DNA of 64,000 nt from Hamiltosporidium tvaerminnensis (lineage: Eukaryota > Microsporidia > Dubosqiidae): positions 1-64,000 of the forward strand of contig JAKIMF020000005.1 in NCBI GenBank assembly GCA_022605425.2. The letters run 5' to 3'. The notes below the pieces were generated by a model. It saw nothing but the letters and a program-made list of their open reading frames with translations. It ran no database searches and had not been told where the DNA came from. Position numbers and translations under genes: made by a program. This document shows, piece after piece, positions 1 to 57,382 of this stretch (position 1 is its first letter; the number at the start of each line of letters is the position of its first letter).

Positions 1-3000
1 TATTCTTTTGTTCAAACAAAATTCTACAAATAATTCTTAAAATAGTTTAATTTTGTTTAGTTTCGGTGTTAAACTTGTTTATGAAGTCGTACATACAATA
101 CAAAAAATATTTGAATTATTAATATTTTACCTGATATTTTAATTTTATTTTAAAAATAGGTAAATCTTAAATAAATTTGTTTATTTCAAACTAAATTAAA
201 TACTCGTTTTTTACATATGCTTAATTTATATTTTTATTTTTTCTATGTAAAGCTACGAATTAATTTTCAAACTTTTCAGAAATTCATTTGAATAAAGTAA
301 TATACTAGAATCAATGATACATTGATTTCAAAATGTATTTATAAACGAATATTATATTATAATAATTAAAAAATAAAGTATTTTTGTGAAAGTAGACGTC
401 TATTCTAATTCACTAAATAAAATTTTTAATTGGGCTTATTGATTCAAATATCATATTATCAAATTACGATTTGTATACTTAAAATTTAAAAAGAACACAA
501 TTAGACATTCAAAACTTTAATAGGTATGATTAATTTTGGATTTTTTAAGTTTTGGTATCATCTAAGTGTGACTTAAGACTATCTTATTATTGAACTTCTA
601 TTACCTAATGAACTGTAAAAGATTTAATCTAAATCAGAGCAAAATAACTGTTCCACAATACTAAAATTTATTTTTCAAAAAAATCGCAGCAAATTTATAC
701 TTTTTACACTACCTAAGCTGATTAGTATTATGACAAGAGTATAGAAGATTTTTTATGTTTAGCTCTTATGGGGTTCAAGAGCAATGTGTAAAAACTCATG
801 AGATTTTATGCAATTGGATTTAACGAAAAAATTAAAGTCGAGCACTTAATAAAATTTATAAATAATTTTACAAATAACAGACACACCTGTTTCATGAACT
901 CCGGGACCAAAAGTTACCTTCAAATACAGATTTACCCATTCGCAAATTCTCGGAGTAAATAACTATATGAAAATGAAATCCAAAGACAATTTTATTTATG
1001 TTTAAACTTATACCCAATTAAACGCCAATAACTATAGTTTAGCATTAATCATAATACTTTTTTAGTTAAACTATCGCTTTCATTTTTTTTCTATAACTAC
1101 ACAAGCAATAGTTATGATATATAAATGACTCTGGGCTTATGAAAAATTCCGGTCTTTTGAATAAATGGGTAATTTCTACGATTTATTTATTCCGCAGTGA
1201 AATTTGAATTATCTATCTTAAGATATATCAAACCTTATTGAATATATTAATGAATTAAAACTTTACCAACATGTATTATAAAGATCGATTGAATTTCTTT
1301 GGTTGAAATGGAAGACTTTTGTTTTGCTAAACAAAATATTTTTCGTGAGAATATTTCAAAAATAATTCAAGAATCAAGAGATATATTAAGGCGTTTAATC
1401 CAAGGAATTAAGAATGTTAAATTTAATAAAAGAAATCTTCGCTTTTAAAACTTATAAATATAGATTAACCAATTGCGACGGATTGAAATATTTAATTAGA
1501 TACGAACGAATAACAAAGAGAATAATTAAATAAACCAGGGTGTGTAAAGATTAATTTAGAAATTAAATTTTTTATATATGAATCCAGATATTTCAAAGAT
1601 AATATAAGCCAAATTTTAAAATATTTTATTAACTTGTCTCAAAACATAAAGATTCTTTTAATTCATCTTCATTACAAACCCAGCCAATATTTCAGCCTTT
1701 TCTGAAATCAATTCCAAGGGGTTCTAAAGAAATTTTCTTCAATTAAAATCTTCTAGCCTTTAAAATATATTCGATTTGTCTTTTTAATTTCGATTTATTG
1801 AAAATATTCGATTAAGTATTTCGATTTCATCGCTAAAAAATATTTCATAGGAATTAGATTACTTGACATACCAAACTTCCTTTTTTACATCTCAACAACG
1901 ATACATGCTTTTGGTTCTACCACCCCCAAAAATTTCCAAATTGTGTTAGGTTTTAGCCGAGATTGCAGTGTGATCTTGCTAACTGTTGATATACATTTCA
2001 AAATTTTTCAAAATTTCCAAATACTTTTCATAAAACCCTAGCTTTGATTCTAGGCCAATATAAACGGCCGTGTGTATCAAACTGCTTACTCGCCCCTAGC
2101 CATGCCTCTTTCGTCTTTTCCGAGTAAGTGGTACGAGAAATTTTGTCCAAATCAAAAAAAGAACTCTTTTGAATAAATTCAATATTATATAAAACTGCTT
2201 CAAGGTGTAATATAATCAGAGATCAAACTAAATGTTCCAATCATTTGTTACATACAACTTTAACGATGTTGTACTAGATATCTAGCAACATAACAATATA
2301 ATCTAATTATTTTATATCTTAACTACAACTACGAATAATTCGTAACAACTTCATTTTGATCGACAATTCATTAAGAAGCAGAGAATATAATAAACACCTT
2401 GCATACTCACTGATATAGCCATTAACCCGTTTTCCTCCTTTTTGTTCGTATTTCTTGAGTTACCTCTTCATTCCAATTTCTTCAATAAAAAATATTTTGA
2501 TATCAGAAATATAAGGTTATAACTTGTTAAAATATATAAAGAAGTTTAATTGTTTTGAACTCATTCTTTTTTTGCTTTAAACCCAAGGAAAAACACAAAA
2601 GATTAAAACATAATCGCAGACCATGTGAATATCTCATATTTTTGTTCTCCTGTTTCTAAAATTGAAAAACGTATCATTTAAAATTTCATTTCAGTAGATT
2701 TAGTTTTAATATATGATTATTAAAACATTTTAAAAAATTTTTATTCTAAATTTTATACATATATTTTTCCTCAATGATTTTTCTGTTAAAACGTTTTATT
2801 TTTCAATATTATATGGTTACATTATTCTAATACTTCGATTTATTTCTAATTCATCAAAAAACCAGTAGCTAAATTTATAAAAACCTTTCATGTACTTTTA
2901 CTATGCTGGAATCATAAATATTCAAATGTTTTTATTTGTAGCGTAAATAATGAATTTAAATTGTATTTTTAGTAGCGTGAGGATAGTCACAAAAAAACAT

Positions 3001-5130: not shown

Positions 5131-8113
5131 GTTAACCCTAATAAACTTATAAAATTTACCATAATTGGAAGTTTTTGTGTATAAGGTATTGGATGTTTTT
5201 TTATGGTTGTTTGGAACATTCGTACTATTAAAACCTTCACTCACTATTTAAAAACAAGGTTTTATAATCTTGGTCATAATAAGTTGTGTTCAGCCTAAAC
5301 ATGGCTGGATTAAATTTGGTTAACTCGTTTTAAAAAGCCCGCAGTATATTGTTGGAAGCATTAATCATATAAGGGATTCATACGTAACTATAGATTTTAA
5401 AATAACGTTTTACTATTTACCTTTCCTTAAATTAATCAAACAGTTATAGCGCATATTATATATGCATTGTTACAACTTCTTAAACACAATATAAACCTAA
5501 TTAAAAAAAGATATAAATGTGAAAAGTATTCAAATATCATGTATAATACTTTCGAGTAATTAATGAGAAATGTAATACTATCGCTTTCGTTGAAATATAT
5601 ATGATATTCTTTGGATTTTTAATGGCTTTGATTTACTAATATGTAATACAACTTATAGTATAATGAACTCTGATATTTGATTCATTTAAGTATATCCATA
5701 TAAATAAATATTTCATTTTAAAATATGTAGTGAGATTTCAATAACTTAAATCATTATAATTATACATATATTAATTCGATTTAAATATGTTAAGTATATT
5801 TTTGAATTATATATTATTTTACATTAAATCAGACTTTTAAATAATATATATAGTACAATAAAATGTCTGAAGTGATACAGAAAACTTTTTATCATGCTAC
5901 TTCTATATTCAAACAAATTCTAATAAATACTTTGCATCCAATTCTTGTAAAATTAAGTACTCTTAAGTTATTTGCCTAATTGAAAGACAATTGTTACAAT
6001 ACTTTTTAAAATAGTTCGTTTTATATATTCTTTTTAGTCTTTAGATTGTAACTTTTTTTATTAAGTATATATTTTAACAAAAAATAAAGCCAAAATAAAA
6101 AATGTAAATAATATTTTGATATGATTATAAGAAAGTTACACTTTAATTAGATTTAGTTCGGCTCAAACCTAATTAATATAACTAATTTTTAATATACTTT
6201 CTCGTAATTCTATATTAATCTAGAATCAAATCTTCAAAAATTAATGAGCTATCTATACTAGTCCGAAATATGCAAGGGTTATATCATTTTAATATCTAAA
6301 TATATTTATAAGTGAATATTAATTTAGAAAGATAAGTATAAATAATAGATACTGATTTGAAAGATAGGTATAAATTGTCTTATAATTAAAAGAAGCAAGT
6401 ATTTATAATACTACAAATAAAATTTCGATGAGTTTCTTTGTCGATTTATAGCTAATTATATCGAATTACGGTTTGTCTGCTTAAAATGTAAAAATAGAGA
6501 CAATTAGGTATTAAAAATCACTTAAACTATAAATGGGGCTGAGTTCTAAATGTTGTGGCATCTTTTACAAATAAATTAGTACTTTTCATTTTTAAACTTC
6601 TGATTCTTCCTTATATGAATAAAGATTAAACTAATTTAAAGGAATAGAACTTATGCCACAACCAGCTGATATATTTTTACTATAATATTTGCACCTGTAA
6701 TATATTATCTCAAACTATCCAAGCTGATTCGAATTATGGAATGGCATATCTAAGGTTATTTACACATTTTACCTTTGTTTAAAGGGTATTCTCAAAGAAC
6801 TCATCTGATCTTGTTTGAAGTCAAAATTAACTAAATAATTTAATGAATTCACTCATAATATATTGGTAGATAAATACCCAATATCATTAACTGGAATTTT
6901 CATAACGCGAAGGCAAATAACGCAATTATGAGGCGCATTTGCCTATTTCAAAAAATTCGAGGTAAAGTTGTATATTATAAAGAAAAAGATAAAATAATAT
7001 AATTTAATTTATAAGTTATAATTTTAAAAATTAATAGATTTTATTTACTTTACATCAAAAAACATTACTTTTGTATATTTGCTCGACTATTTCTTTTAAA
7101 CTTTAAGAAAATTTATTTGTTCCTCATGATATATGAGTGAATTGTTCTCTATGATTGAATTTTTTTCTTCTTGATAAAATGTGTTCTTCTTATTATAGAA
7201 ATCTTCGTAAATGGTTTGAGCTATTAACGCTTAAATAAGCCGTTTGGACTCAATACAAAGTTTGTATTATATATTATCTTCTATCATTTTTTGGTTTGTG
7301 TTAGAAGATTAAACATATTTTATATTTTCTAAAAATTTAAAGGTAATGCTGTTTTGAAGAAATATTTTTAAATGTATATTTTTTTAGTACTTTTTGCGTT
7401 AAAAAAATTCCAAACTCATAGGTCTATATGCTTCTTTTTGTTTGAATACTATTTTATTTATATTGATTTTATAGAAAACAGAGAATAAATAATGTGCCTT
7501 TTCTCATACTGACAATATTACAATAAACAATAAAAAATTAGAATTTTAGTGAATGTATATTCGCTCATCCAAAGCTTTCCTGGTTTTAGTACTTTTGATA
7601 AAAATAAAACTTTAGTTAAATGATATGCATCTTAACAAATAAATATTTTAATTTTTTTAAATTATTATTACTAATTTAGAAGATTCCATGTAGCAATTAT
7701 TTTAAATATATCTCTATACGTATTAAACAATAAATTTTTTTAGATAATACATGGTTTGAAATTAATTCATTTTACAGCTATTTTTATAATTTCTTTCTTT
7801 TTTATTTAAATTTATGCAATGTAAAAATTCGGACATGAAATAGAATCTGAAGAAAATTATATATGTAGGGATATACTAATAAAAATATCTTAGTATGATT
7901 TAAAAGAAGCCAAGAACATTATTTAAATAAGTATTGTTATACATTAAAATAGTTTCGAAGGGTAAGTTGTAAATGATGTAATTATCAATTGTGACTTTAG
8001 ATAAATCAAATTATGATTGGATAGGAATCGTTTAGGAATGGTTTTTCCAGATGTTGAACTAATTAAATTTAAATACCTGTTTAAATGAGATTAGTTGTAG
8101 CGAAGTGTAAAAG

Positions 8114-8123
8114 TATAAATATA
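8114..8123 (+). promoter_or_regulatory. TATA box of the B1 RNA candidate
   Basis: TATAAATATA starts 29 nt before the GGCAGC that opens the conserved element. The same motif and the same 29-nt spacing are seen in C1 (39125) and D (56113). Confidence 0.45.
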
Positions 8124-8142
8124 CAAAGTTTTCTCATTTTGT

Positions 8143-8575
8143 GGCAGCTTCTAAGGCTCACCTTAAAGAATACTTTTGAAATATCGGATGCTCTATAGGA
8201 AAAGCTCTTCATCCTTTAAACTACAAGAGCTATGACTGTACTGAAGTGGAAGCCAAATATACCAAATGTCACCGTTCACAGATATCCATTCTCTGTAATA
8301 TTTGCAGCTAAATTTGCTGCATCTGTATATCCTAATTGCTGGATTATAGAAAGACTTATGCAAATTTATTTACGTAATTCTATACTTGCTTCAATATAGA
8401 TGTCCTGAACAACAATCGATTTTGTTAAAAAATCAAAGAATTCGAAATGCATGGTTTTAATCACTTTAATATGCTAAGATACACTTACGAACAACATCAA
8501 TTGTATTTAATTAACTTTAAGGCAATGAGCCAAATACTAGGACAACACTACCTATTTAGTTAGAAAAGTCGTTTG
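8143..8575 (+). ncRNA. Candidate structured non-coding RNA, copy B1
   Basis: This ~430-nt element is shared with C1 (39154-39585) and, more distantly, D (56142-56589), although the surrounding AT-rich DNA of D has largely drifted beyond alignment. Visible inverted repeats are AGCTCTT 8203-8209 with AAGAGCT 8225-8231, ACAGAT 8278-8283 with ATCTGT 8321-8326 enclosing GCAGC/GCTGC at 8304-8320, and GACTTATG with CGTAATTC (one mismatch). The last hairpin, AGGCA with TACCT, has lost a pair that C1 and D keep. No open frame is shared between copies. No T-run terminator follows. I do not recognise a known family: there is no telomerase template, no snRNA signature and no tRNA fold. It may be a decaying copy of an RNA gene, or simply a conserved DNA element. 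Confidence 0.45.
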
Positions 8576-9659
8576 GAAATATTTACCCACTACAATGAAA
8601 TTATATCAAAATACTGTTCAAAAAAATCTTTAATCATTTTACGAACAACCGTAATTTATTGTTTACAATATCTACAATTTTGATTGTATGATTTTAAGTG
8701 CTTAATTCAATCACAATCTAAAACAATAGGTCTTTTATAATATTTTGCATATGTGTGATTCTTATATATTTACATTTCTATTTAAATAAATGTGTTCGTT
8801 TCATCTTTCTAAAGGTATTACATACTTTGTTGCTAGCTATGTTACAGAACTTATATAAAGACATTGAAAAGTTAATCGAAACGTATATTTCTTTAATGTT
8901 TTTCTAAACCAACTTTCTCAAGTATTTCACTGCTACAGATTAGGTAAATATTATTTTCTTTACTATATTTCTCAAGTATTTCGCTCACCCAGGTCAGTAG
9001 AAGCAAAAATTTTAAATTAGAATGGTATTAAGTGCTTTATGCACTTTCTAATAAATTAACTCTTAATTTTGCTTTTCTGAGCTAGCTATTGTGATTTGCA
9101 TGAAATATTTCAATTCTTTTCAAATTAAATTAAAATGGCTTTTTTTTGGCTCGAGCATAGAAAATTTTAGTTTCTCTTTTAGTAAGAATATACAATAAGT
9201 AGAAATAGAACGAATATATGCCTAAATCTCTATTGAAATCGCTTTTTTTAAAGTTTTTTATGATTTTCGTACTTTTATCCAAGTAAGTAAAATATCCAGA
9301 CATTGTTTTTACATTAAAAACCCTTATGAATAAAATAGCGACATTTCTTTTGAATATAAAAATAAAAGAGCTTCGAAATGCAAGGCTTTTAGCATTTTTT
9401 ATTAAAATAAATTTAACAATAAAGAAACAAGTATTGAGTTTATTCATTTATAATTTAAAAAAAGTAAACTCCTAATATTAAATAATTTTTTACGTGTAAT
9501 AATTTGAATTTAGCAGAATTCTTAATTTTTTCCTGATAAAACTACTCTTGGACTTTGGCACCAATAATATTTACGTTTTAAAAAAGAATTTTCCAAATGA
9601 AAATTAAAAAAAATTAAAAAGCAGCTGAATATTAATAAAAGAAAGAATTTAATTGTAAT

Positions 9660-12340: not shown

Positions 12341-15300
12341 AACCTTAATAAACTTATAAAATTTACCATAATTGGAAGTTTTTGCTGGTAAGGTATTAGG
12401 TCTTTTTTTTGTTTATTTATTACATTGGAACTATTAAAAACTATAATCACCATCCTATAAATATAATTTCTTATCTTGGTCATAATACGTCGTATTCGAT
12501 CTAAATATAGCCTTATTAAAATTTCCGAAATTGTTATTAAAAGCCTTCAATATATTGATTGAGACATTTATCATATAGGGTATTCAGAAGTAACTTTTGA
12601 TTTCTCAATAACCTCATATTAGTACTTTCCGAAAATTGAGCAAAATGCCACCTATTATATATGGATTGCTTCTTTGGCTTTAAAAGAATATAAAGCTAAG
12701 GAAGAGAAAGTACTTGATCTGAAAAAGTATTTAAAATATCTTGTATGCTATTTTGAAGCGAAAAGAAGAGAAATGTAAAAATATTGCTTTTAATCTAATA
12801 TATTAAATATTGCCTATATTTATATAGACATGCATTTATTATTCATATACATATATCTATATTAGCTGTGTTAATATTTAAATCACCTTAATATATCCAT
12901 ATAAAAAAATGGTTTTTATTTTAATATTTGCCCTATTTGACTGACTTAAATTGTTTTTATTATAAGTATATTGATTCTTTTAGATAATGCTAAGTTTTTT
13001 TAAAAAAATTATATATTATATGGTAGAGATTTACGGAATTGAAGTTTAATAAAATTGATACTAAATAAAATATCTTGAGTCATAAATGTGTTTATATACT
13101 AATAGAATAATAAAACCAAATTTAAATAGATGTTTTTACGCTAAGTATATCAATTTTAATTTTCTTAACCCATTTCTGTTTTTTAAAAAAAATTATACAA
13201 CTTATTCTTAAAATAGTTTAATTTTGTATGCTTTTAAATGTTACAATGGTTATGAAGTCGTACATAAAAGATAATATTTGAATTATAGAATATTTTACGA
13301 GATACTTTATTTTATTTTATTTTAGCGATAGGTAAACCTTAAATAAATTTGGTTTATTTTAAACTAAATAAAATACTCGTTTTTTACATATGACTAATAT
13401 ATATTTCTCTTAGTTGTATGTAAAGCTAGAAATTAATTTCAAACTTTTCAGAAATTCATTTAAATGAATGAAATAATAAAATCAAGGATACATTGATAAC
13501 AAAATGTATTTATAGATGAGTCTTATATTATAATTAATTAAGTTTGTTTGTGAAAATAGGCGTCTATTCTATTTCACTAAATAAAATTTCTATTTATTAA
13601 GTTCGTGGATTTATATTATACCATTAGTTATGGGTTATATACTTTAAATATAAAAAAAAGAAGATGGTTTAAAATGTAAAAAAATAATATGATTATGCTT
13701 GGATTTTTTATATTCGGTATTCTCTACACGTAACTTAGCACTATCTTGTTCTTAAACCTCTATTAGCCGATCCACTCTATAAAGATTTAACTTAATGTAG
13801 AACGAAAGACACTAGTTCCACAATCAACTACTGTATATTTTCCGAAAAATTCGCAGCAAATTAATACATTTTAAACTACCCAGGCTTGTTTTTATCATGG
13901 AAATAGTATGTAAGGCTATTTGCCTGTGTAAATTATTTAGGATTCAAATGGGGTGTCTAAGAACTCATTCGATCTTGTTCAAAATCGGATTTACGAACAA
14001 AGTAAATTCGTTTACTTAAAATTTATTTAAAAATAACTCTACCAATATCAGAAACGCCTTTTATATACTAAATGGTTAAGAATTACATTCATAGACGGAT
14101 TTGCATATTCGCAAAGTTTCAGAGTGGATAACTATACCATAAACAATCTATAAAATATTATTTTGTGTTTAAATTAAAACCTTTTAAAAAACCAACAACC
14201 ACACTTAAGCTGTATCATAATACTTGTTTCATTTAAATCATCTATTCGTCTTTTTATCTACAACTACAATCGTGATCTTTATGATATATAATGTGATTTA
14301 GGCTCTTTAAAGTGTTGTATTCTTGTTGGAAGATGTTTATGCTTAAGCTATATATATTCTAATATGAATATGTATTATCTATCTTTAGATATACCTTAGC
14401 GGAAAGTCATTAAATATATTAATGAATTACTTTGTCCCCACTTGTTTTATAAGGATCGATTTTATTCTTTGCATAATAAAAGACTATTGTTGTAAATAAA
14501 TAAAATATCTCAAATGTAATTTAAGACACCATGAGATATAGTAACTCTCTTAAATTGTATTATATTTAGAAAGTAAATTTTATAAAATAAAACCGGATTA
14601 TTAAACTAAGAAATATAGATTAACTAATTGCAAAAGATTTAAATGTTTATAATTTGATTTGAAGGAATAACAAAGAAATGTATTTAATAAACCAGGAGGT
14701 ATAGAAATTGATTTAAATAAATTATAATGTTTTTTTTACATAAATATAGACATTTAATAGATAATATAAACCAATTTTACAACATTTTATTTTTTTATAC
14801 CTTAAAATCATTAAATTCCTACAAATTCGTATTTCTTAGAAAACAAACGAACATTTCTATCTGTTCTCAAGTTATTACAAGGAATTCATCCAAAGTAATT
14901 TTATAGATATAAACAATTCTGATATTCAAAATATATCAAATAGCTATTTTTAATTTCACTTTAAGATAAATATTTGAATTTAATATTTAGATTTCATCAC
15001 TTAAAATACATATCTGATTCAATCAAAACCACTTAGGTTTTTTTCCTCCTCATAGGCCAATAAAAAAATATTTTTTCGGAATTAGATTAGGTAACACATA
15101 AAATTACCAGAATTTGCATCTTAACAACGTTCCATGCTTTCTAGTTCTACAAGGAAAAGAATTTCTAAATTGTGCTCAGTTGTAACTAAGATTGCAAATG
15201 TAGAAGTCTACTGTTAGATACAATCCAAAATGGCTCAATGTCTTCCAAAAACTCTCCATAAAACCTCAGCATCGAATATAACCTACTTAACAATGCTTTA

Positions 15301-36160: not shown

Positions 36161-39124
36161 TAAGTCTTAACCCTAATAAGCTTATAAAATTTACCATAAT
36201 TGGAAGTTTTTAAGTGTAAGGTATTGGATGTTTTTTTATCCTTATTGGATATAGTTGGACTATTAAAACCTTTACTCAATATCTCAAAATAAGACTATTT
36301 TATCTTGGTCATAATACGCTGTGTTTAACTTTATTATGGCCTTATTAAATTTTATGAAATCGTTTGGAAAAGCTCTCAGTATATTGTTAGAAACATATAT
36401 CATATATGGGATTTATAGATAACTTTCGTTTTCATATAACCTCATATCATTTACCTTTTATAAAATTGATTGAAATGCCAGGTATCTATTACAAATGTAT
36501 TGTTTAGGTTTCTTAAAAAAAATATAAATCTATTTGAAAGAAAGATGTATATGTGAAAGATATTTTAATATCATGTATAAAACTTTTAATCGAATTAATG
36601 AGAAAATTAATATTATTACCTTTTGTGAAATGGATTGAATTTTATAGATTTATAAAGAGATTAATTTATTATGTGTAATACAATCTATGGGCAGTAGATC
36701 TTAATATTTCATTCATCTCAATATATCATATAAATAAATATTTCGTTTTATAATATATAGCCAGAGTAAACCAACTTAAATTGTTATATTCATAAATGTA
36801 TTAAATTTTTTTATAATTTGTAAACTCTTTTTATTAGACTTATATACTATCTTACTGCAAAGTACTAAAGAATTAACTTTAACTAAATAGGATAGAATAC
36901 TAAAATGTCTTGAACTATTAACTTTATTTTATTTATATTACTTTTATACTAAAACCACATTATAATGAATGATTTTACATTAACTATTCGTACATTTGAA
37001 TGCTTTTGAATTATCTACCTAGTTTAAAGGCGATTTCTATAACTATGTTTTAAATGCTTAGGATATCTGCTATTTGGGTTTTTTTGATCTTTAACTTTCA
37101 CTGTAGCAATACGGATTCACTCAAAAAAACAATTCAACTAAAAAATAATTTTGATAATATTTTATTTTGTAAAAGATAGATTGAATGATCAATATATAGT
37201 TTAGTATAAACTTAATTTTACACCACATTTTTTTAATATATATTTTTTATAGCTTTACAGCTACGAACAACTCTTTACATAATAAAGAAATACTTATATT
37301 AATGAAATCATAAGATATTGATAACATTTTTATATCTAGATATATTTATAAGAGGACATTAAATGAAAAGATTGAAAAAACATATTTTTTTTACTCAATA
37401 AGTCGTGTATTATAATTTAACAAATAAAATTTCGATGATCTTGTTTGTCGATTTATAGCTAATTATATCGAAAGTATTATTTTTCCAATTAAAACGTAAA
37501 AATAAAGATACTTGGGTATTAAAAATCACTAAAACTATAAATGAGCTTCAGTTCTAAATGTTGTGGCATCTTTTACAAGTAAATTACTACTTTTTAATTT
37601 TGAAACTTTCGATTCTTCCTTATATGAATCAAGATTAAAACTAATTTAGAAGCAATAGAACTTAGCTACAACCAACTAAAATATTTTTACTAGAATATTA
37701 GCACCTTTAATATAATATTTCAAACTATCCAAGCTGATTCGGATTATGGAATGGCATATCTAAGGTTATTTACATATGTTACCATTGTTTAAAGGGTAAT
37801 CTCAAAGAACTCATCTGATCTTGTTTAAGGTCAAAATTAACTAAATAATTTAATGAATTCACTCATAATATATTGGTACATAAATACACAATATCATTAA
37901 CTGGAATTACAATAACGCGAAGGCAAAGAGCTCAATTATGGGACGCATTTGCCTATTTGAAAAGATTCGAGGTAAAGTTGTATATAATAAAGAAAAAGAT
38001 AAATTAATATAATGGAGTTTATAAGTTATGATTTTAAAAATTAATAGATTTTAATTACTCTACACCACAAAACTTTACTTTTGTATATTTAATCGACTAT
38101 TTCTTTTAAACGTTAAGATAATTCTTTTTTCCTTCATGATATATGAGTGAAGTGTATGCTCTATGATTGAATTGTTTTCTTCTTGATAAAATGTGTTCTT
38201 CCTATTACAAAATCCTAAATCAATGTTTTGAGCTATTAAAACTTAAGTAAGCCGTTTGGACTCAATACAAATTTTGTACTATATATTATCTTATATTATT
38301 GTTTGGTTTGTGTTAGAAGATTAAACATATTTTACATTTTGTAAAAATTAAAAGGTAATGCTGTTTTGAAGAAATATTTTTTAATGTATATTTTTTTAGT
38401 ACTTTTTGCGTTAAAAAAATTCCAAACTCATAAGTCTATATACTTCTTTTTGTTAAAATAGAATACATATTAATTTTAATTGAAAGGTATCTAAAAACTA
38501 ATGTGCCTTTTCTCATAATGACAATGTTACAATAAAGAATAAAAAAATATAATTTTACTGAATGTATATTCGCTTATACAAAGCTTTGCTGGTTTTAGTA
38601 CTTTTGTTAAAAATAAAACTTTAGTTAAATGATATACACCTTAGCAAATAAAGATTTTAATTTTTTTTAAATTAGTAAATAATAATATATAAGATTCCAT
38701 GTAGCAATTATTTTAACTATATCTCTATACGTATTAAACAATAAATTTTTTTTAAAAGACATGGTTTAATATTAATTCATTTTACAGCTAGTTTTATAAT
38801 TTCTTTTTTTTTATTTAAATTTATGCAAGTTATAAATAAATTCAGATATGAAATAGAATATGAAGAAAATTATATATGTAGGGATATACTAATAAAAATA
38901 TCTTAGTATGATTTAAAAGAAGCCAAGAACATTATTTAAATAAGTATTGTTATACTTTAAAATGGTTTAGAAGGGTAAACAGTGGATTTTATAATTAATC
39001 ATTGTGGCTTGAGTTAATTTATATTGTAATTAGATAGATTGCTTTGGAAGAATATCTATCAAGCTACTGAACGAATTAAATGAAATTTGATTCTAAGTGA
39101 CATTGATTGTAAAAAATTTAAAAG

Positions 39125-39132
39125 TATAAAAA
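39125..39132 (+). promoter_or_regulatory. TATA box of the C1 RNA candidate
   Basis: TATAAAAA starts 29 nt before the AGCATC that opens the element, the same spacing as in B1 and D. Confidence 0.45.
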
Positions 39133-39153
39133 GGCGAAGATTTTTCATTTTTT

Positions 39154-39585
39154 AGCATCTTCTACGGATTAGCTTCAAGAATATGTTTGAAATATCGGAT
39201 GCACTATAGGAAAAGTTCTTCATCTTTAAAACTACAAGAGCTATGACTGTAATGAAGTGGAGGCCAAATATAACAAATGCCACCCCTCACATATATCAAT
39301 TCTCTGTAATATTTGCAGCTAAATTTGCTGCATCTGTATATATCCTAATTGCTGGATTATAGAAAGACTTATGCAAATTTATTTACATAATTCTATAATG
39401 CTTAAATATTGATGCCCTGAACAACAATCGATTTTGTTTAAAAAATCGAAGAATTCGAAATTAATGATTTCAATCACTTTGTAATGCTTTTAGATAATCT
39501 TAACTGCAACATCAATTGTATTTACAAGAACTTTAAGGCAATGAGCCAAATACTAGGACAACACTGCCTATTTAGATAGAAAAGT
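39154..39585 (+). ncRNA. Candidate structured non-coding RNA, copy C1
   Basis: Colinear with 8143-8575. It opens with GCATC, which can pair with GATGC about 45 nt on, as in D. AGTTCTT at 39214-39220 pairs with AAGAGCT at 39236-39242: relative to B1, one left-arm C has become T, which keeps pairing as a G-U wobble. The TGCAGC/GCTGCA hairpin is unchanged. GACTTATG with CATAATTC keeps all but one pair. The closing hairpin AGGCA 39537-39541 with TGCCT 39565-39569 is intact. As in B1, no T-run terminator follows. Its function is unknown; the case rests on conserved architecture and is not a family match. Confidence 0.45.
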
Positions 39586-40679
39586 TGTTTGAAAATATAT
39601 ACCCTATACAATAAAATTATATCAAAATACCGTTCAAAAAAATCTTTAATCATCTTACGAACAACCCTAATTCATTATTTACAATATCTACAATTTTGCT
39701 TGTATGCTTTTAAGTGCTTAATTCAATCACAATCTAAAACAATGGTTTTTTTATAAAATTTCGCATATGTGTAGATTCTTATATACTTACATTTCTATTT
39801 AAATAAATGTGTTCGTTTTATTTTTCTAAAGATTTTACATACTTTGTTGCTAGCTAGGTTACAGAACTTATATAAGGACATTGAAATGTTAATCAAATCC
39901 TATATTTCTTTAATGTTATTCTAAACTTACTTTCTCAAGTATTTCACTGCTACAGGTTTGGTAAATAATATTTTCTCTACTATATTTCACAAGTATTTCC
40001 CTAACTTAGGTTAGTGAAAGCAAAACTTTTTAATTGGAATGGTATTATGTGCTTTATACACTTTCTAAATAAATTAACTTTTTTTATTTGCTTTTCTAAG
40101 CTAGTTTGTGTGATTTGCATGAAATCTTTCAATTCTTATCAGATTATATTAAAATGGCTTTTTTTTGGCTCGACCATAGAAAGTTTTAGTTTCCCTTTTA
40201 TAACGAATTCACAATAAATAGAAATAAAACGAAGATATCCTTAAATGCCTTTTGAAATCGCACTTTTTAAAAGTTTTTTATGATTTTCTTGCTTTTAAAC
40301 AAGTAAGTAAAAAATGCAGACATTGATTTTTACATTGAAAACCCTTATGGATAAAATAGCGGCATACTTTTGAATATAAAAATAAAAGAGCTCCGAAATA
40401 CAAAGCTTTATGCATTTTTAATTAAAATGTATTTTCAACTATAAAAAAGTAAGTATTGAATTTGTTCACCTAAAATTTTAAAAAGGTAAACTCTTAATAT
40501 TAAATGATTTTTTACGTTTAATAATTTGAATTTAGCAGATTTCATAATTTTTTCCAAATAAAACTATCTTGAAACCTTGGAACCAAAAATATAATGTTTT
40601 AAAAAAAAATCCCCAAACGAAAATTAAAAAGCAGCTGAATATTAATATAAGAAAATTTTTATTTGTAATTAGCAGAAAT

Positions 40680-50560: not shown

Positions 50561-52089
50561 GAAATCTAAAATTGGGTAAGTCGGGGGGTTTGTCGGGCAT
50601 ACGAAATGAACTAATTAAAGCTTGCCCGATGAATTTTATTGGACATTTGAGTGTACTTTTTAACCAAATTATATTGGAGAAGAAAGTACCTATGGCATGG
50701 AAATGCCATAGAATAAGACTTATCAGAAAAGAAAAGAAAAGTTATAGGCTTATTGCGTTGATTGAAGAGACGCGAAAATTGTTTGAAAAGTGTATTCAAA
50801 GAAAGCTTTCATTTAGGCTTTCTACTCGACAGACTGGTTTTAGAGAAAGACATTCTCCAATAGATAATGCTTTGGGTGTTGATCATCTGTTAAGAAAGGG
50901 AGCTGGTAAGTTAATTTGTGTTTCATTAGATATAAAGTCGGCGTTTGATACAGTGTATAGGTGGAATCTTTATAAGAAACTAATTGTTTACCAATGTCTA
51001 TCACTAAATGATACCCTTCTGATAGCGGAGCTTATTGAAAACAATTCGTACGTCTTGGAACATGGAAACAGAAAAATCGATTGTTTTACGGCTTCAAGGG
51101 GTATACCACAGGGAAGTGTGCTTTCACCTAATTTGTATAATGTTTTCATTGATGACCTATTGTTGTATATTCCGCAGAATCTAAGAAAAAATCTGTTTAT
51201 CTACGCTGATGATATTTTTCTATTTGGTGCCACACTAAAACAGATAAGGAAAATTATCAGATGTATACAATTGCATGCATCTGATAACAAGTATGAGCTT
51301 AACCAACAGAAGTGTTTCTACAACGCGAATAAGAGATGCCGTATAGTTGTAAATGGTTCCCCTATAGAAAAACAAAGCCCTATGCATTATTTGGGGTATT
51401 ACTTTAATTTGATGGGAACGGATACCAATTCATCAATAAAAGAAACAAGAAAAAAAAGTTTGAAGGCGGCTATTGTTATGAAGAATGAACTTATTAAAAA
51501 AGTCGGCATAGGTAATAGTGGATATTATAGGCTTCTTTTGAAAGGATATGTGACGTTTATTAGACCACATTTGGATTATACAATGTTTTTATTGGCTGCT
51601 AATAAAACCTATGTTTCAGCAAGTGATAGAATCCAGAAGTCAGTCGTAAAGTATTTGTTTGGTTTGAATCAGAAAATTCCGAGTGCTTTCTTATATGCCT
51701 TGTTACCAATCGAAACGATGATACAAAGATCCAATAGACTTACACTTTCACTTGGTTTGAGACTAATTACGAATATTGATACTGGCTTGTATACTGATTT
51801 GATGCAAAACAATACAAAGAATTTTAAGCATATAAAGAATACCTATGAAAAATATATATATGATACAAGAATAATCCCTATGAAACTGTTGAAAGATTTA
51901 AAAAATAGTTTTCTTAAAGATAATAGAACACTACTGGAACAAATAACTCCCCTTAGATTTTATGATTTCAAAAATATTAGATACAATGATTTTACGAGAT
52001 TATTGAATATTTTAAAGGAAGAAAAATTTATCGAATTACAAGATATTGTTGCGTTTTTTATTGAACAAAGCCGAAACCCTCCTATGTAA
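50539..52089 (+). CDS. Retrotransposon ORF2, C-terminal part: reverse transcriptase
   Basis: RNA-dependent DNA polymerase of the LINE type. Motifs are in order: KSGG lead-in (14-17), YRLIAL (69-74), motif A LDIKSAFD (130-137, Asp131), motif B GIPQGSVLSP (188-197), motif C YADD (222-225), motif D with K258, and motif E YLGYYF (284-289). A thumb-like region with RPHLDY follows, and no RNase H is present. The frame is open from 50518 with no ATG before the polymerase fold. The GTG at 50539 is unlikely to be a real start, because the first ATG (about 50629) would cut the domain. It lies one base back (-1) relative to the endonuclease frame, with an overlap of 43 nt. Expression would need frameshifting, or the copy carries a one-base lesion. 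Confidence 0.9.
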   Translation: MELLDEIRNLKLGKSGGLSGIRNELIKACPMNFIGHLSVLFNQIILEKKVPMAWKCHRIRLIRKEKKSYRLIALIEETRKLFEKCIQRKLSFRLSTRQTGFRERHSPIDNALGVDHLLRKGAGKLICVSLDIKSAFDTVYRWNLYKKLIVYQCLSLNDTLLIAELIENNSYVLEHGNRKIDCFTASRGIPQGSVLSPNLYNVFIDDLLLYIPQNLRKNLFIYADDIFLFGATLKQIRKIIRCIQLHASDNKYELNQQKCFYNANKRCRIVVNGSPIEKQSPMHYLGYYFNLMGTDTNSSIKETRKKSLKAAIVMKNELIKKVGIGNSGYYRLLLKGYVTFIRPHLDYTMFLLAANKTYVSASDRIQKSVVKYLFGLNQKIPSAFLYALLPIETMIQRSNRLTLSLGLRLITNIDTGLYTDLMQNNTKNFKHIKNTYEKYIYDTRIIPMKLLKDLKNSFLKDNRTLLEQITPLRFYDFKNIRYNDFTRLLNILKEEKFIELQDIVAFFIEQSRNPPM

Positions 52090-52113
52090 TGTTAGTACTT
52101 GGCCATACTAACA
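52090..52113 (+). other. 3' UTR hairpin of the retrotransposon
   Basis: TGTTAGTA (52090-52097) and TACTAACA (52106-52113) form a perfect 8-bp stem with loop CTTGGCCA. The hairpin starts directly after the TAA stop. LINE reverse transcriptases often recognise a 3' stem-loop in their own RNA, so a template-recognition role is a reasonable inference. Confidence 0.65.
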
Positions 52114-52160
52114 AGAATACTATATAACATTCTTTGGATAAAGTGAATTACATGTTATTA

Positions 52161-52166
52161 AATAAA
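52161..52166 (+). terminator. Polyadenylation signal
   Basis: AATAAA lies 72 nt after the stop codon and is followed by a T-rich run. It marks the probable 3' end of the element. Confidence 0.5.
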
Positions 52167-52170
52167 GTTT

Positions 52171-55100
52171 TTTTATTTTATATGCTTTTAGTTTTATTAT
52201 AAATTTATTTTTTATTTAATTATAAAGTTTTTTTAATCTTATTTTATTGTTATATTATAATTTCAAATTTTTTATATCTTAATGTTAAATTAAAATTGTT
52301 TCCTATCTAAAACATTTTTTAATATGTCTTGCAACAATACGTACCTCTTTTTTATTTTTTTTAAACGAAAATTTGAATTTTTTTACTAAGAACTTAATTT
52401 GAATTTTCATTAAAAGTTTTTACCTGATTTTTATATTATCTATTTTGCTTGTTATGGAAATATTGAACTTTTGCTGGTCCAAGGGTTATACCTAAGCTTT
52501 TTTTTCTATTTAAGATAAATAGTGTTATACTCAAATTTCGTTTTTTTTTATTTACTTGAAACAATTTTTTATATTTAGGTATATGATCCATTATTTACAT
52601 GTCTAAAAAGCATTTTTGTTTGTTACCTAAGTCCTTAATTCGGAAAACTTTGGTTTTACTTTTTTTTGGAGAGCATTCTTGATGTTTTTCTTGGATTAAG
52701 TTTAATTGTATTGAAATTAAAATTTTTTATCTGAAAGCAATAAAATAAAATATTTTAAAGGCTTTTATAATAAACTACCTAATTTTTTAGTCAGAAAATA
52801 TTACATTAAACTTTAAATTTTACAAAAAATAAAAGTAAAAACCATATTTTATTTAATTACATTCTCTTCGTCTGGTTTCAGTTATGGAATCTTCTTAATT
52901 CGACATATAAATCTTTAAATTTGTAATATGTAAGATCGAAGGCTATTTACTCTCTAAACTACTATTTTTCTTGTTATATGAACCTTCTAACATTTACGTA
53001 ACTAATAATCTCTTTTGGCATATTTTTATATTTTAGTGTCTTTGGTTTGTTGTTAAATTTAGAATGTCAATAGATTTTTTGTCTTTCTTAGATTTTCTAT
53101 ATAATATATACATTTTTAAAAATAAGTTCTAAAAGTGTTTGCTAAACGGAAGGTTTTGAACAATCTTTATAACGTTACTATAGTCTAAATTGGTGCCTCG
53201 TAATTCAGTTTGTGTCTTTTTGCAATATCTTGGATTTATATTCTTTTCTTTCTTAATCAGCCGGTATTTCTTTCTTAGAACTTGTAAGTATTTTTATTTA
53301 GTTATTAGCTTATCTAATACATGGTTTACATTATTTTTCAAAATTTTATTTTTTTAAACTCAAGACTGGTTTTTTATAACAATTTTATATTTTATAAGAC
53401 GGTTCGAATTTGGTTTTTAAATTTGTTGTCAAAGAAGTTTTAAAGAATGCCTAAACTTTCGTTGGTTTTAGGTGTTTGTAATTTTTTTAAAAGAATTTAC
53501 TTTTCTTAGAAGGTTTTATATGTTTTTTTTAATTTTTAAACTATTTTCTAAATTTATTAGAATGATTTTTACTTATTTACTGGAATTTTTTAGTCGTTAA
53601 GTTTTTTATATCTTTTTACCTGTACTTACAATTTTTTAAAATTTTTTATATGTTTTTACATGTTGCTTTTGTAGTTTTTTACGTTTTCTCTTAAATTTAG
53701 CTGTTTTTTCGTGTTTTTTTACAGCTTTTGGAATTTCCTAAATTTTTTATTTTTTTTTTAAAACTTTTTAAATTTTCAATTTTATAATATTTAGAATTTT
53801 AGACTTGCTTTATGTTTTATCAACTTATTTATTGATAGGTATATCTTCCGAGTGTCTTTTAACGTATTAATAAGATTTTTTTTGTAAAACTGTATACTAA
53901 ATGAACAATTATTTGTTTTTGACAAAAATCTGAAGATTTTTTTAAAAAAATTATCATTTTTGAATTATAGCTCGGTAAATTTAAAATAATTACGCCCGTA
54001 AAATTATCAAAGCCTAAACCTTGTTCAAATTACTTTTAAAAGTGGGTACTTTCACTTTTATAATAAATTATATAAGTTATATATTAGTTTTTTTTTATTA
54101 TATATTTTTTTTATCTTTTTAATAGAGCTAGAATTTTATTCTCGCTACGAAATTCGAAGAATTTCTATAAAAAAATATTTTTTCCAAAAATATTTTATGT
54201 TACCATTCTTAATTACTATTTTCTGTTTTTAGTAAGTAAAAATTTTGGAAAAATTTTTTCAATAGAGTAAATAAAAATATAGATTTGGAAGATTTATGTT
54301 TGGTTTAATAAATTTCGAATAACTTCCATCTTTCAACAAAAATTACTGTAAACTCTTAATTAAGATTGAATTATCCTTTTTTATAACTTAAATTTTAAGT
54401 TCTTTACTCAAAAATAGAAAAGTTAAAGCAAATATTTGCAACTAAAGGTGATATCTCTTTAAATTTAAAATATTGTAAGATTTTAACTTGATTCTGTATG
54501 TAATAGTAGTTATTTTTTGCTGGTTTAAATTTAATTTTTTTTTTATAAAAAATTACTTTTTATTTTTATATCCTATTAAATATGTATTAAACTAACTGAC
54601 AGCATTCATCTTTAAGGAAATTGAATAAAATATAAATCGTAATTCAAATAATGGTAAAAAACATATGTTTTTTGACTATAGTAAAAATAGAAACTTATAT
54701 TTTTATAAGTATTATTAATTTACCTAAAAAGGAAATACATTTGTAAATCTGTAAATATCTTATAAATCTTACTTATATCTAGTTTTTCCAACTTAATAAC
54801 CCTATAGAGAATCAGTAATAAATTGTACTTATAAAATTTTGATTCAAATTTAGGTTTGTTTACACAACGAAAGAAATTTTGGTTTTCTAAAAAAGTAAAT
54901 TTGGTTTTGCATGTTTTGAGTTAAAAAGTTACTTTTTTTTTGAAAGTTATTTTTCTTTAAAAAATTCGAAGAATGTTTTTTGTAGTATCAAATTTTTGTT
55001 GAAAAACTTTTAATGTACGTCAATTTTGAAATAAATCAACAAACCTCTAGATTCTTATGTTTCTTTTCGAAGAAAAGAAAGAGAAGACAAGTAATATAGA

Positions 55101-55384
55101 CCCTTTTTGTATTAATTTTCTAAACATTCCTTATTAAATTATTATTTATCATTTAAGCTAAAGAAAATAAGTTTAACATATGAAGAATAAATAAATTTTT
55201 TATTTTTTCACTTGTTAGATACGGATTATAAACGTATTTTGGATATCTACGGTTAAAGCATTTCTTGATATACCTTGGAATTTTATTTTTATATAAAATA
55301 CAATTTATTGACTTTACTTTTCGAAACCATATACTTATTTTTTCTTTCATACTTTTACTTTTTCTATTTATTATATTTTGAATA
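52171..55384. other. T-rich non-coding DNA
   Basis: The + strand is T-biased, especially 53500-53780, where TTTTTTATAT and TTTTTACNTGT strings recur irregularly. One degenerate TTTTCTATATAATATAT box near 53093 resembles the 190-bp satellite, but no array is visible. A reverse-strand frame (55407-55153) begins with TTG inside the palindrome array and looks like chance. Confidence 0.55.
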
Positions 55385-55777
55385 GATATTCTCGAAGAGA
55401 ATATCAAAAGTGTGGTTTTTGTAAGGCTTTTATAATGGATATTCTCAAAGAGAATATCAGAAGTGTCTCTTTAATTATTTTTCTAAAATAGATATTCTCG
55501 AAGAGAATATCAGAATCGAATTTCATGTAATAGGCCTAAGATAAATACGTTCAAAGAGAATATCATATATGTCTCTTTAATTATTTTGGTAAAATAGATA
55601 TTCTCGAAGAGAATATCAAAAGTGTCTCTCTAATAAAGTTAAAGTAGAATTTGGATTTTCGAAGAGAATATCAGAATTGAAGTTCATTTAAAAGACATGG
55701 AGGGATATTCTCGAAGAGAATATTAGAATTGTATTATATTTATTGTATTATTAATGTATATTTATGAAGAGAATATC
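55385..55777. repeat. Array of eight palindromes, about 53 bp apart
   Basis: The repeated core is left arm GATATTCTC, centre GAA (AAA in one copy), right arm GAGAATATC. Perfect or near-perfect copies lie at 55385-55405, 55438-55458, 55491-55511, 55597-55617 and 55704-55724. Copies with a decayed left arm end at 55564, 55672 and 55777. Spacing is 52-55 bp. The DNA between cores is also repeated in part (AAGTGTCTCTTTAATTATTT). The core contains TTCTCGAA, matching the heat-shock-element half-site pair nTTCnnGAAn. The right arm is better kept than the left. This looks like an array of binding sites; it is not CRISPR, since the spacers are themselves related. Confidence 0.85.
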
Positions 55778-56112
55778 GGAAATGCAAAACTTTTATAATT
55801 TTTCAAAATTTAAAATGATTTTACACTATTATTTTTTTTGATTAAGCAATGACATATGTAAAAGAAATTTAAAGAAATATAGCAAAAAATTTATTTGTCT
55901 ATGCGAATTCATGAAATGATATTTTTGAAGATAGTCCTATATTTGTATAGGCGAAAGTTGTTTTAAATAGGTAAAAGATGATTTGTAGGGTATTTATTTT
56001 TTTACAATATATTTTAGCTTCTCTCTTAGAGTTTATTAGATATCTTATCAAGCTTTAGGAACGTATCATTATTATCTAAAAATTTGCAATTGGTTCAAAA
56101 AAAATATAAAAA

Positions 56113-56122
56113 TATAAATATA
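56113..56122 (+). promoter_or_regulatory. TATA box of the D RNA candidate
   Basis: TATAAATATA starts 29 nt before GGCATCT, the first stem of the element. This spacing matches B1 and C1. Confidence 0.5.
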
Positions 56123-56141
56123 GGTGAATTTTTAATATCGT

Positions 56142-56589
56142 GGCATCTTCTACTGTGGTAATCTTACTTTGTCTATGGGTATGGGATTATCTATCTCTTA
56201 GTAGTAATCCTCAGATGCCCTGATATATTTCTTTTTCACCATACTAATGTAGAAGCAATGAAACACATGCCACAAATACTGAACGATTTCGTTCTTACTT
56301 TGATATTCGCAGCGGAATGTACTTTTACTCTTACTATCTACGCTGATATGGTTTGTTAAAGGACTTATGTAAGATTATTTGCATAAGTCTGGACATAAAT
56401 CCATAGGGTAGTAAACAACTAACTCGTTCGATCTCGTAAAACAGTCGAATATACTTAAATAAGTGAATTTATTCACTTATGAAAATGTTGATATATAATC
56501 GTATTAACATCAATACCTGTTTTACAGTATCTCTAAGGCAATGAGCTCGATAACGGGACAATATTGCCTATTTAGATAGAATATTTTTT
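56142..56589 (+). ncRNA. Candidate structured non-coding RNA, copy D (most complete)
   Basis: Six stems are visible. Stem 1 is nested: GGCATCT 56142-56148 with AGATGCC 56213-56219, CTACT 56150-56154 with AGTAG 56200-56204, and GGTAATC 56157-56163 with GATTATC 56185-56191. The others are GAACGA/TCGTTC at 56281-56294, CAGCG 56310-56314 with CGCTG 56341-56345, GACTTATG 56362-56369 with CATAAGTC 56382-56389, ATAAGTGAA 56459-56467 with TTCACTTAT 56472-56480, and AGGCAAT 56536-56542 with ATTGCCT 56563-56569. A T6 run (56584-56589) follows and could be a Pol III terminator. With the TATA box, this resembles a Pol III gene with an upstream promoter. GTTCGATCTC at 56426 is near a B box. No known RNA family is recognised and no protein frame fits. 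Confidence 0.55.
56584..56589 (+). terminator. T6 run after the D RNA candidate
   Basis: Six T residues lie 15 nt after the last stem. In AT-rich DNA this alone means little, but it falls where a Pol III terminator would be expected. B1 and C1 lack it. Confidence 0.35.
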
Positions 56590-56812
56590 AAAGAATGTAA
56601 ATACAGCAAGTATTTTTAGATTTAAAAACTTATAACACATTAGGGCCTCTTCTATATGAAACTAAATAGAAAATTCGAATTATCTATTTCTCTCTATCTT
56701 ACCCCTAACTTGCTCTTTATGTATCTAACCCTCTCCTCATAAACTTTAAATCAAAATCAAATATAGTATATGTCTTTGGAAAAACTAATTTCTGTTTAAA
56801 TAAATGTGTTCG

Positions 56813-56822
56813 CCCTAACCCT
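56813..56822. repeat. Short interstitial telomere-like junction
   Basis: CCCTAACCCT joins fragment D to the broken end of the reverse-strand gene. The last codons and stop of that gene are read from this string (AAG GGT TAG). The orientation is that of a telomere added to the gene side. Confidence 0.6.
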
Positions 56823-57382
56823 TAGAACATAATGTAGATAGATCGTTTATTATTGGTTGAGAGCATGTAGTTTCTGTGGTAAATTGTTTATTTACTACGT
56901 CTCGTTTCATGGATTCCTCTTCAAAATGTTCCGAAATTCGTTCTTTTCCTGCCTTTTCGGAAAACGCAATATGGAATGCTGGTATTGGAGTAGGTGAATA
57001 GATTGAACTTACAGTTTTATTAGCATCGCTGCATGTTATATGTAGTGATGCATTGTCAAAAGAACTTATTTCTATGTTTTCTTCTGGTATGTAATTTTCA
57101 TGTAAATAAGATGTCTGAGGATTCGCTTGGAAAGATTCTTGTTTATTTTGAAGAAATTCGGTCGTTGATGTTTCTATTTCTTGAGGTTGAATTGGATCAC
57201 TTTGTATCAAAAAAACCTTTGCAAAACTTAAATAGTAAAAATCAATCAATTCTGGGATAATAATCGTTATTTTCAGCTATAGAATTTGGTTCCCAAACTC
57301 TTTTGTTGTTTCTTTGGTTAGTTGTAGCAAAAAGTTTTAATAAGAAAGTAAAAGTTGCGGGAAAACTAAATGAAATTTTCAT
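56815..57382 (-). pseudogene. Truncated and frameshifted gene for a probable secreted protein
   Basis: Reading leftward from ATG at 57382-57380, the protein starts with MKISF and a hydrophobic stretch typical of a signal peptide (about residues 1-20). It is then hydrophilic and rich in Ser, Thr, Glu, Asn and Pro. The first frame stops after 46 codons at TGA within ATTGATTGATT. The neighbouring frame takes over there and runs to 56815 without a stop. The switch coincides with a tandem 4-bp duplication, ATTG twice, which explains the shift. The C-terminus is lost: the stop is formed by telomere-like bases at the junction with fragment D. Amino-acid composition is balanced, unlike chance frames in this DNA. 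No family is recognised. A secreted or surface protein of a parasite is an inference. Confidence 0.6.

Follow-up and report, generated by a model that had tools for sequence, protein, structure and literature searches.

What is the element of roughly 450 nt that starts at position 56142, near the left end of a contig of Hamiltosporidium tvaerminnensis? A preliminary description had proposed a TATA-led, structured and possibly new RNA, present in three separated copies. We examined this proposal in the window, that is, the whole stretch of 64,000 nucleotides analysed (C14:1-64000, the left end of contig C14), and in the genome searched, which comprises 21,638,905 bases in 17 contigs. A published H. 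tvaerminnensis assembly totals 21.64 Mb; both telomeres are present on 11 of its 17 contigs, and the telomeres have the form (TTAGGG)n (PMC10542269). We tentatively favour the reading that the element is the promoter-plus-structured-RNA module at the centromere-facing 3' end of chromosome-end units, that it works like the corresponding part of HeT-A, MoTeR or FoTeR, and that its copies are mostly decayed.

The three copies reported before are present, at 56142-56589 (448 nt), 39154-39590 (437 nt) and 8143-8574 (432 nt). In each, TATAAA begins 29 nt upstream of the start (at 56113, 39125 and 8114), and the inverted repeats quoted for them, GCATC/GATGC, GACTTATG with its partner, and AGGCA/TGCCT, can be found as described. 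These real copies are neither all that the window holds nor a single set: strong copies also start at 37565 and 6557, two relics accompany them, and the original three fall into two subfamilies, with 56142 in B, and 39154 and 8143 in C. We distinguish subfamilies B (56142-like, 20 long copies), C (39154-/8143-like), E (37565-like) and D (diverged). The features of the window are as follows.

56113..56119, + strand: TATA box TATAAAT, 29 nt before the start, identified by the spacing pattern
56142..56589, + strand: predicted structured RNA core, subfamily B, based on fold z score, conservation and cross-family pairing
56590..56798, + strand: tail of the predicted transcript, little conserved (B against C identity 0.27-0.45; z of the B consensus +0.7)
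56799..56812, + strand: AATAAATGTGTTCG, poly(A)-signal-like 3' end, the same or similar in most B, C, D and E copies
56813..56821, + strand: CCCTAACCC, telomeric-repeat junction; the sequence past it is not common to other B groups
52201..56817, + strand: subfamily B repeat unit of about 4.6 kb, with the element at its 3' end
39125..39815, + strand: subfamily C copy (TATA 39125, core 39154-39590, AATAAATGTGTT at 39802)
8114..8798, + strand: subfamily C copy (TATA 8114, core 8143-8574, AATAAATGTGTT at 8785)
37536..38197, + strand: subfamily E copy absent from the preliminary description (TATA 37536, start 37565, ATAAAATGTGTT from 38186)
6528..6980, + strand: second subfamily E copy (TATA 6528, start 6557)
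13993..14117, + strand: older relic of the 3' domain (covariance model E 0.0036; sequence-only model 25.4 bits)
849..950, + strand: possible 3'-domain relic at the matching place of a repeated unit (covariance model E 0.22)

A covariance model of the 3' domain had seven matches in the window, each on the + strand, and none in two interior 6-kb samples. The relic at 849 was not listed by the sequence-only model at E values up to 10. For relics outside the training set, the structured model scored 31.6 against 25.4 bits (13993) and 38.2 against 34.1 bits (L022:7699), a gain that is small and that we do not count as evidence. The latter is one of three near-identical 3'-domain relics (L022:7699, L023:1496 and L024:7696; E 0.00068 each), which lie about 2.9 kb downstream of B copies on the same strand.

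BLAST searches of the whole genome with 56142-56589, 39154-39590, 8120-8580 and 37480-38050 returned 32, 28, 22 and 40 matches, respectively, which merge into at least 84 separate loci distributed over 23 contig arms; the number is a minimum because the 37480-38050 search scored 40 of 56 candidates. The orientation is uniform: in this BLAST set, the TATA end faces the closer of the two contig ends at 84 of 84 loci. The median distance to that end is 43 kb and the largest 190 kb, both measured to contig ends, not all of which are telomeres. Many of the loci are block duplicates, as on the C14-left, C13-left and C2-right arms, and hence do not represent 84 independent events. These three arms are duplicated subtelomeres: they are 95-98% identical in the surroundings of the 56142 copy, their copies follow one another in the same order, and about 17 kb separates the B from the C copies. 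The exact pattern TATAAA-23-GGCATC has 26 matches in the genome, 23 in known B, D and E copies and three elsewhere, against four for the reversed control pattern; the C copies, most of which begin with AGCATC, do not match it.

The 3' end had been placed at 56589, which is too early: the conserved module extends from about 56100 to about 56817 and closes with AATAAATGTGTTCG. Upstream it reaches to about -42 of the start. From -432 to -43 the mean identity between B and C is 0.33-0.54, and the two are not clearly homologous there; it is 0.59-0.63 at -42 to +18, 0.28-0.37 at +18 to +108, mostly 0.48-0.70 with one window of 0.38 at +108 to +438, 0.27-0.45 in the tail, and 0.70 at +648 to +678, the last peak corresponding to TTTAAATAAATGTGTTCG. 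Between subfamilies, then, conservation is higher in the stretch from +108 to +438 and at the module ends than elsewhere in the module.

Past +678, that is, just after AATAAATGTGTTCG, the B groups lose their mutual similarity while the C rows stay alike (0.76-0.95). Since all C rows are alike past the poly(A) motif, C has no 3' limit of its own. Most E rows also end in an AATAAA-type motif and their groups part shortly after it, as judged by eye; the 22 E rows form about nine groups that diverge near the same point (by eye, among the rows listed). A 3' limit is thus present in B and between the E groups. The poly(A)-like motif is lost in the C3-right/C16:189576 group. RNA 3' ends of H. tvaerminnensis are preceded, at a mean distance of 20 nt, by the hexamer A[A/U]UAAA (PMC10542269), and AATAAATGTGTTCG contains this hexamer. 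Together, the hexamer and the similarity limit suggest a likely transcript from about 56142 to about 56817-56830, and not to 56589. No ATG-initiated open reading frame of at least 50 aa in the ORF list overlaps the 56142 module, and the longest between 52201 and 56142 has 65 aa, where 52201, the 5' limit of the B unit, is an approximate position taken from one comparison (with C9 left).

The sequence beyond the poly(A) motif was read in 13 of the 20 B copies together and in others separately; the copies so read form ten groups. CCCTA follows TTCG directly in at least one copy of seven of these ten groups, an eighth has CTCTAA and two have neither; a CCCTAA junction is therefore found in most B groups. 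What comes after the CCCTAA junction differs from group to group. The units at C12 left and C9 left wholly diverge after CCCTAAC, although a comparison over 2.8 kb shows 99.3% identity between them, and in C6-right and C5-left the sequence past the junction resembles part of the reverse transcriptase ORF of the LINE described below (68% over 128 nt for C6-right). The motif AATAAATGTGTTCGCCCTA, searched with up to two mismatches, has 12 genome matches, all in known B or D copies, and its reversed control has none. E junctions are mostly without CCCTAA, and C copies are without a telomeric junction. There is no A-run at the 13 B junctions read together, which counts against an RNA route because a polyadenylated template would be expected to leave one. 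On the other side of the element, the upstream flanks differ between copies, and the C9-right group combines an E-type upstream flank with a B-type element, the switch lying inside the conserved TATA-start region. At the right contig end of C7 (L047), a telomeric array of about 0.67 kb joins the middle of an element copy with nothing in between, which would fit the healing of a broken end.

The proposal of a structured RNA holds in that the element is TATA-led, non-coding and without an Rfam family; the evidence offered for it from the original three copies is not supported in the form given. The predicted fold of young B copies is solid. The 56142 copy has a minimum free energy of -119.5 kcal/mol against -85.2 for shuffles (z -6.4, reached by 0 of 100 shuffles), and its antisense strand has z -3.2, also with 0 of 100. 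In a survey of 24 non-redundant copies, where the 56142 copy had z -7.1, the strong folders were all from B (-7.1, -5.5, -4.1, -3.9, -3.1 and -2.4), and 17 of the 24, four of them from B, ranged from -1.0 to +2.1. The 8143 copy (z -2.2 in this survey, -2.9 in another run) was the only C copy to reach -2.2. Over the whole survey the mean z was -1.0 and the median -0.1, while flanks averaged -0.45 upstream and +0.17 downstream; individual E copies (n=22) had a mean of -0.5.

Majority consensus sequences were folded as well. On the sense strand, the B consensus gave z -5.9 and -4.9 (B1 alone -6.1, B2 alone -2.4) and the E consensus -3.6 and -3.7, with -5.8 in a less redundant set, -2.3 and -3.5 in two sub-clades, and -0.1 and -2.4 for the halves of the E core taken alone. 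The C consensus, at -0.9 and -1.0, behaved like shuffles. Antisense values were -1.9 (B), -1.0 (E) and -2.0 (C), so that the sense strand folds better than the antisense strand for B and E, and not for C. The flanks gave -1.0 (B upstream), +0.7 (B tail), -2.4 (E upstream, a short stretch), +1.8 (E tail) and -1.3 for both the upstream and the tail of C. The cross-copy support claimed earlier is not borne out as described, since 39154 and 8143 belong to C, and the G-U wobble change that had been cited in favour of a structure also lies inside C, where there is little sign of one. The structural evidence, which is moderate, comes from the B copies and from the comparison of B with E. In our reading, the ancestors of B and E were folded RNAs, and decay has since affected the majority of copies: those of C and E and the relics look decayed, and young B copies retain the fold.

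Whether this pairing is conserved across subfamilies was assessed at several levels. In 41 aligned rows, the structure derived from 56142 forms in 66.1% of cells against 35-41% in slid versions, and its covariation score is 0.167 against 0.132 in shuffled alignments (0 of 500 reach it). For the 3' domain, in 34 rows, the corresponding values are 76.0% against 34-43%, and 0.208 against 0.151 (0 of 500). Two of the five measures, rated by the tool as least affected by relatedness, did not exceed the shuffles in these 41-row and 34-row tests: pairs changed on both sides numbered 67 against 71.7 (457 of 500 shuffles reach) and 17 against 17.8 (375 of 500), and further pair types 185 against 208.5 (500 of 500) and 52 against 54.1 (408 of 500). 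Alignment-shuffle z scores, which ignore relatedness, were -6.0 for B1, -3.4 for B2, -2.9 for B, -1.1 for C, -2.9 for E and -12.9 for all rows.

With a tree-based null, the rows outside B1 beat 200 of 200 nulls on three measures. When the structures of five B rows were placed on E, the observed pairing was reached by 0, 0, 5, 15 and 9 of 200 nulls, and on C by 13, 10, 4, 118 and 134. For four E-row structures the counts were 7, 7, 6 and 0 on B and 84, 159, 113 and 53 on C, and three C-row structures were not transferable to other rows (16 to 196 of 200). Slid and shifted decoys stayed below an absolute z of 0.85 in this test. Stricter decoys were stems complementary in the source row but absent from its structure. 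Against these, the 56142 structure paired 0.593 of cells on E rows (decoy stems 0.525) and 0.611 on C rows (decoy stems 0.493), with 0 of 60 decoys reaching the pairing in either case and one of 60 reaching the z on E and one on C. The numbers of decoys, out of 60, that reached the pairing and the z were 1 and 9 on E and 0 and 2 on C for the C12 structure, 0 and 0 for the structure of E row L058 on B, and 11 and 11 for that of the window copy 37565 on B. The tree-based null is lenient for complementary decoys (mean z 1.6, E rows), and the raw z of 3.2 is therefore overstated; we claim only the excess over complementary decoys.

Several covariation analyses were negative. An R-scape-like all-pairs test had no pair with E below 0.05, whether in B, in C or in all rows together, and a default RNAalifold run on the mixed 41-row alignment gave 0 pairs and no consensus structure. 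At branch level, pair-breaking substitutions equalled those of slid decoys (67-68% against 67-71%). In the family-consensus comparison, 0.74 of B pairs were kept in E and 0.66 in C, against 0.59-0.78 and 0.53-0.71 in slid versions, and G-U was not preferred over A-C beyond the decoys (1.20 against about 1.2, leaving out pairs that are G-U in 56142). The best-supported helices are those at columns 362-371/379-388, 336-344/349-357, 421-435/440-455 and 232-243/251-262 of alignment A1. In the 56142 copy, five helices with better support would pair 56147-56153 with 56249-56255, 56361-56372 with 56379-56390, 56459-56467 with 56472-56480, 56485-56494 with 56501-56510, and 56536-56543 with 56562-56569. 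On these models, conservation of the pairing across subfamilies is likely but not proven.

How might such a module operate? The units would be attached to the chromosome ends of H. tvaerminnensis with the module at their centromere-facing 3' end. Its own Pol II-type TATA box at -29 would drive a start at 56142. Next would come about 430 nt of folded non-coding core, then the poorly conserved tail and, about 657 nt after the start, the poly(A) hexamer of the species. From TATA box, start and hexamer, we infer that the module is transcribed and expect a polyadenylated RNA of roughly 670-690 nt. The fold of this RNA may mark the 3' terminus of a template that is copied onto a chromosome end carrying TTAGGG; alternatively, the promoter may drive the chromosome-end units, as in HeT-A. 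An RNA that stops at the poly(A) signal, next to CCCTAA, might base-pair with the overhanging TTAGGG strand. It seems to us quite doubtful that chromosome ends receive copies of a short non-coding RNA by this route, through the reverse transcriptase of another element or telomerase, in a species that keeps ordinary TTAGGG telomeres as well.

Comparison with known systems informs this proposal. HeT-A, TART and TAHRE of Drosophila are oriented relative to the chromosome end. Sense transcription of HeT-A begins in the 3' UTR of the immediately upstream element (PMC3235214). This 3'-located start is comparable to the TATA box, a putative promoter, in the 3' end described here. The differences are that the telomeres of H. 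tvaerminnensis consist of TTAGGG, that about 670 nt separate the start from the end, with a poly(A) signal downstream of the start, and that no Gag-sized ORF was seen in the unit. For MoTeR1 and MoTeR2 of Magnaporthe and FoTeR of Fusarium, the reports state that the 5' ends always face the chromosome end, that FoTeR 3' ends run into the C-strand telomeric repeat TAACCC, and that MoTeR units are parted by short telomeric tracts, truncated copies being healed by new telomeres (PMC12857005, PMC7367193). The orientation is shared with our element (84 of 84, relative to the nearer contig end). The 3' end on a telomeric repeat is matched in B, is mostly not visible in E, and is not found in C. MoTeR2, like the unit described here, is without a reverse transcriptase region. 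The present unit differs from MoTeR/FoTeR in having neither a reverse transcriptase ORF nor a B-type partner, and in having a TATA-led folded 3' module.

By analogy with the orientation and junction of FoTeR/MoTeR and with the start site of HeT-A, we propose that the module acts like such a 3' end, as a promoter with a folded RNA that would be either the template end for copying onto a TTAGGG terminus or an independent RNA. The ORF lists contain no reverse transcriptase ORF in the window's unit, where no ATG ORF exceeds 65 aa, and, for this unit, no Gag-sized ORF; a partner element sharing the B-type 3' terminus was not found either, all 12 genome matches being known copies. For these reasons we do not place the module in the MoTeR/FoTeR or HeT-A families. 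In Plasmodium falciparum, lncRNA-TARE comprises multi-copy non-coding RNA loci in subtelomeric repeats (PMC3218844). The module is likewise multi-copy, subtelomeric and non-coding; however, transcription of lncRNA-TARE and TERRA runs toward the telomere, and the order of TATA, start and poly(A) signal here would read away from it at 84 of 84 loci. The Y' and X subtelomeric elements of yeast have a uniform orientation and telomeric seams and are spread by recombination, and Y' encodes a helicase. Our element resembles them in its orientation and seams, and recombination may spread it too; its unit has no ORF comparable to the Y' helicase.

The main rival to the reading we favour is recombination. 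The module would then be a stand-alone non-coding RNA gene family with a function at chromosome ends, spread only by subtelomere recombination (break-induced replication at short internal CCCTAA tracts) and without reverse transcription. We consider this somewhat unlikely. Uniform orientation is also expected from subtelomere recombination alone, the same copy order recurs on C14 left, C13 left and C2 right as in a block duplication, CCCTAA seams follow most B units, and the switch from E flank to B element in C9-right resembles gene conversion. The better conservation of parts of the module than of the rest between subfamilies also agrees with a gene of its own, but most copies fold no better than shuffles, and recombination alone leaves unexplained why the E groups reach their limit near the poly(A) signal, mostly without CCCTAA. 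Subtelomere recombination is clearly also at work and could account for most of the copying. It is improbable that the element is simply a dead AT-rich subtelomeric repeat whose TATA box, inverted repeats and AATAAA were inherited by descent and are now inactive. The mean z of -0.5 among E copies (n=22), the C consensus near -1 and the negative covariation at pair, branch and family-consensus level agree with decay; the strong fold of several B copies, the sense-strand bias of the B and E consensus sequences and the exact TATA-start spacing in 23 copies do not.

TATA spacing of this kind fits external Pol III promoters, and the 56142 copy ends in T6 (56584-56589) and carries a B-box-like GTTCGATCTC at 56427, as would suit a Pol III gene of about 448 nt with a TATA box at -29. 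But several B copies have a short T-run or none, the C and E rows have none at this position, most copies of every subfamily have a poly(A) motif instead, positions 56232-56236 form an internal T5, and ARAGORN found no tRNA gene; for want of a conserved terminator T-run we rejected this very improbable reading. The B-box-like sequence itself (GTTCGATCTCG, 56427-56437) occurs in most B copies and not in that form in C. That the module is the promoter and leader remaining from a lost coding gene is less probable again: TATA box and start are conserved, but no ATG ORF of at least 50 aa overlaps the 56142 module, copies differ by single-base indels, and conservation between subfamilies is best at +108 to +438. 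A telomerase RNA, or its pseudogenes, we regard as barely conceivable, in spite of the subtelomeric place, the fold, the TTAGGG telomeres and the CTAACCCT or CCTAACCCT in the tail of seven of nine B1 copies. The subfamilies have no common template-like stretch of at least 8 nt: B1 has one in the tail, three C copies carry another permutation elsewhere, and 22 of 22 E rows have at most 6 nt in the stretch examined. There was no Rfam match, and telomerase RNA was rejected because a conserved template of about 1.5 telomeric repeats is missing. In the window, positions 56700-56735 of the tail contain CCCCTAAC and CTAACCCT, and CTAACCCT or a longer form is present in seven of nine B1 copies and not in E.

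The suggestion that the element may belong to no known RNA family agrees with our searches, as Rfam at gathering threshold gave no match, either in the window or in 13 further loci; when 56050-56850 was searched permissively, two matches came up far below their thresholds, and these are not credible. None of the papers listed in searches of open-licence PubMed Central literature describes the element, judging by the title or the shown start of the abstract, and the accessible parts of two H. tvaerminnensis genome papers (PMC10542269 among them) do not mention it. Long non-coding RNAs have been reported in another microsporidian (PMC13359526).

Several other features surround the element. A LINE occupies 48456-52250 (48456-52089) and has a cysteine-rich ORF, a second ORF that we liken to an endonuclease, although it has no Pfam match, and a reverse transcriptase ORF (PF00078). 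The latter (50629-52089) is 84-90% identical to three protein fragments of Hamiltosporidium magnivora/H. tvaerminnensis and 44% to a fourth, and the reverse transcriptase stretch has five full-length genome matches at 96-100%, itself included, three of them in duplicated blocks. We considered whether the LINE (48456-52089) and the element make up a single retrotransposon, and abandoned this idea: the copies of the reverse transcriptase ORF on C3 and C16 match it at 96% and 98% identity, while identity in the following unit is 0.60-0.84 (150-base windows). LINE copies are thus more alike than the units that follow them, and the LINE is a separate neighbour. Scattered degenerate CCCTAA motifs with negative GC skew are found at 44740-46550, 9660-10620 and 40660-41660, the last two stretches lying downstream of C-type copies. 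Units that contain TAACACCC are repeated in tandem at 24876-26384, with periods from 29 to 88, and a tandem 53-nt repeat with an inner palindrome, whose extent varies among copies, is located at 55381-55636, just upstream of the 56142 element.

If the module is transcribed, H. tvaerminnensis, a microsporidian, would possess many related folded RNAs encoded in its subtelomeres. The layout would then unite a promoter in the 3' end, as in HeT-A, with the telomeric 3' junction and outward 5' end of MoTeR/FoTeR, and would offer a concrete route for the growth of large subtelomeres in an expanded microsporidian genome. The orientation away from the chromosome tip in all copies found may show how repeats join chromosome ends.
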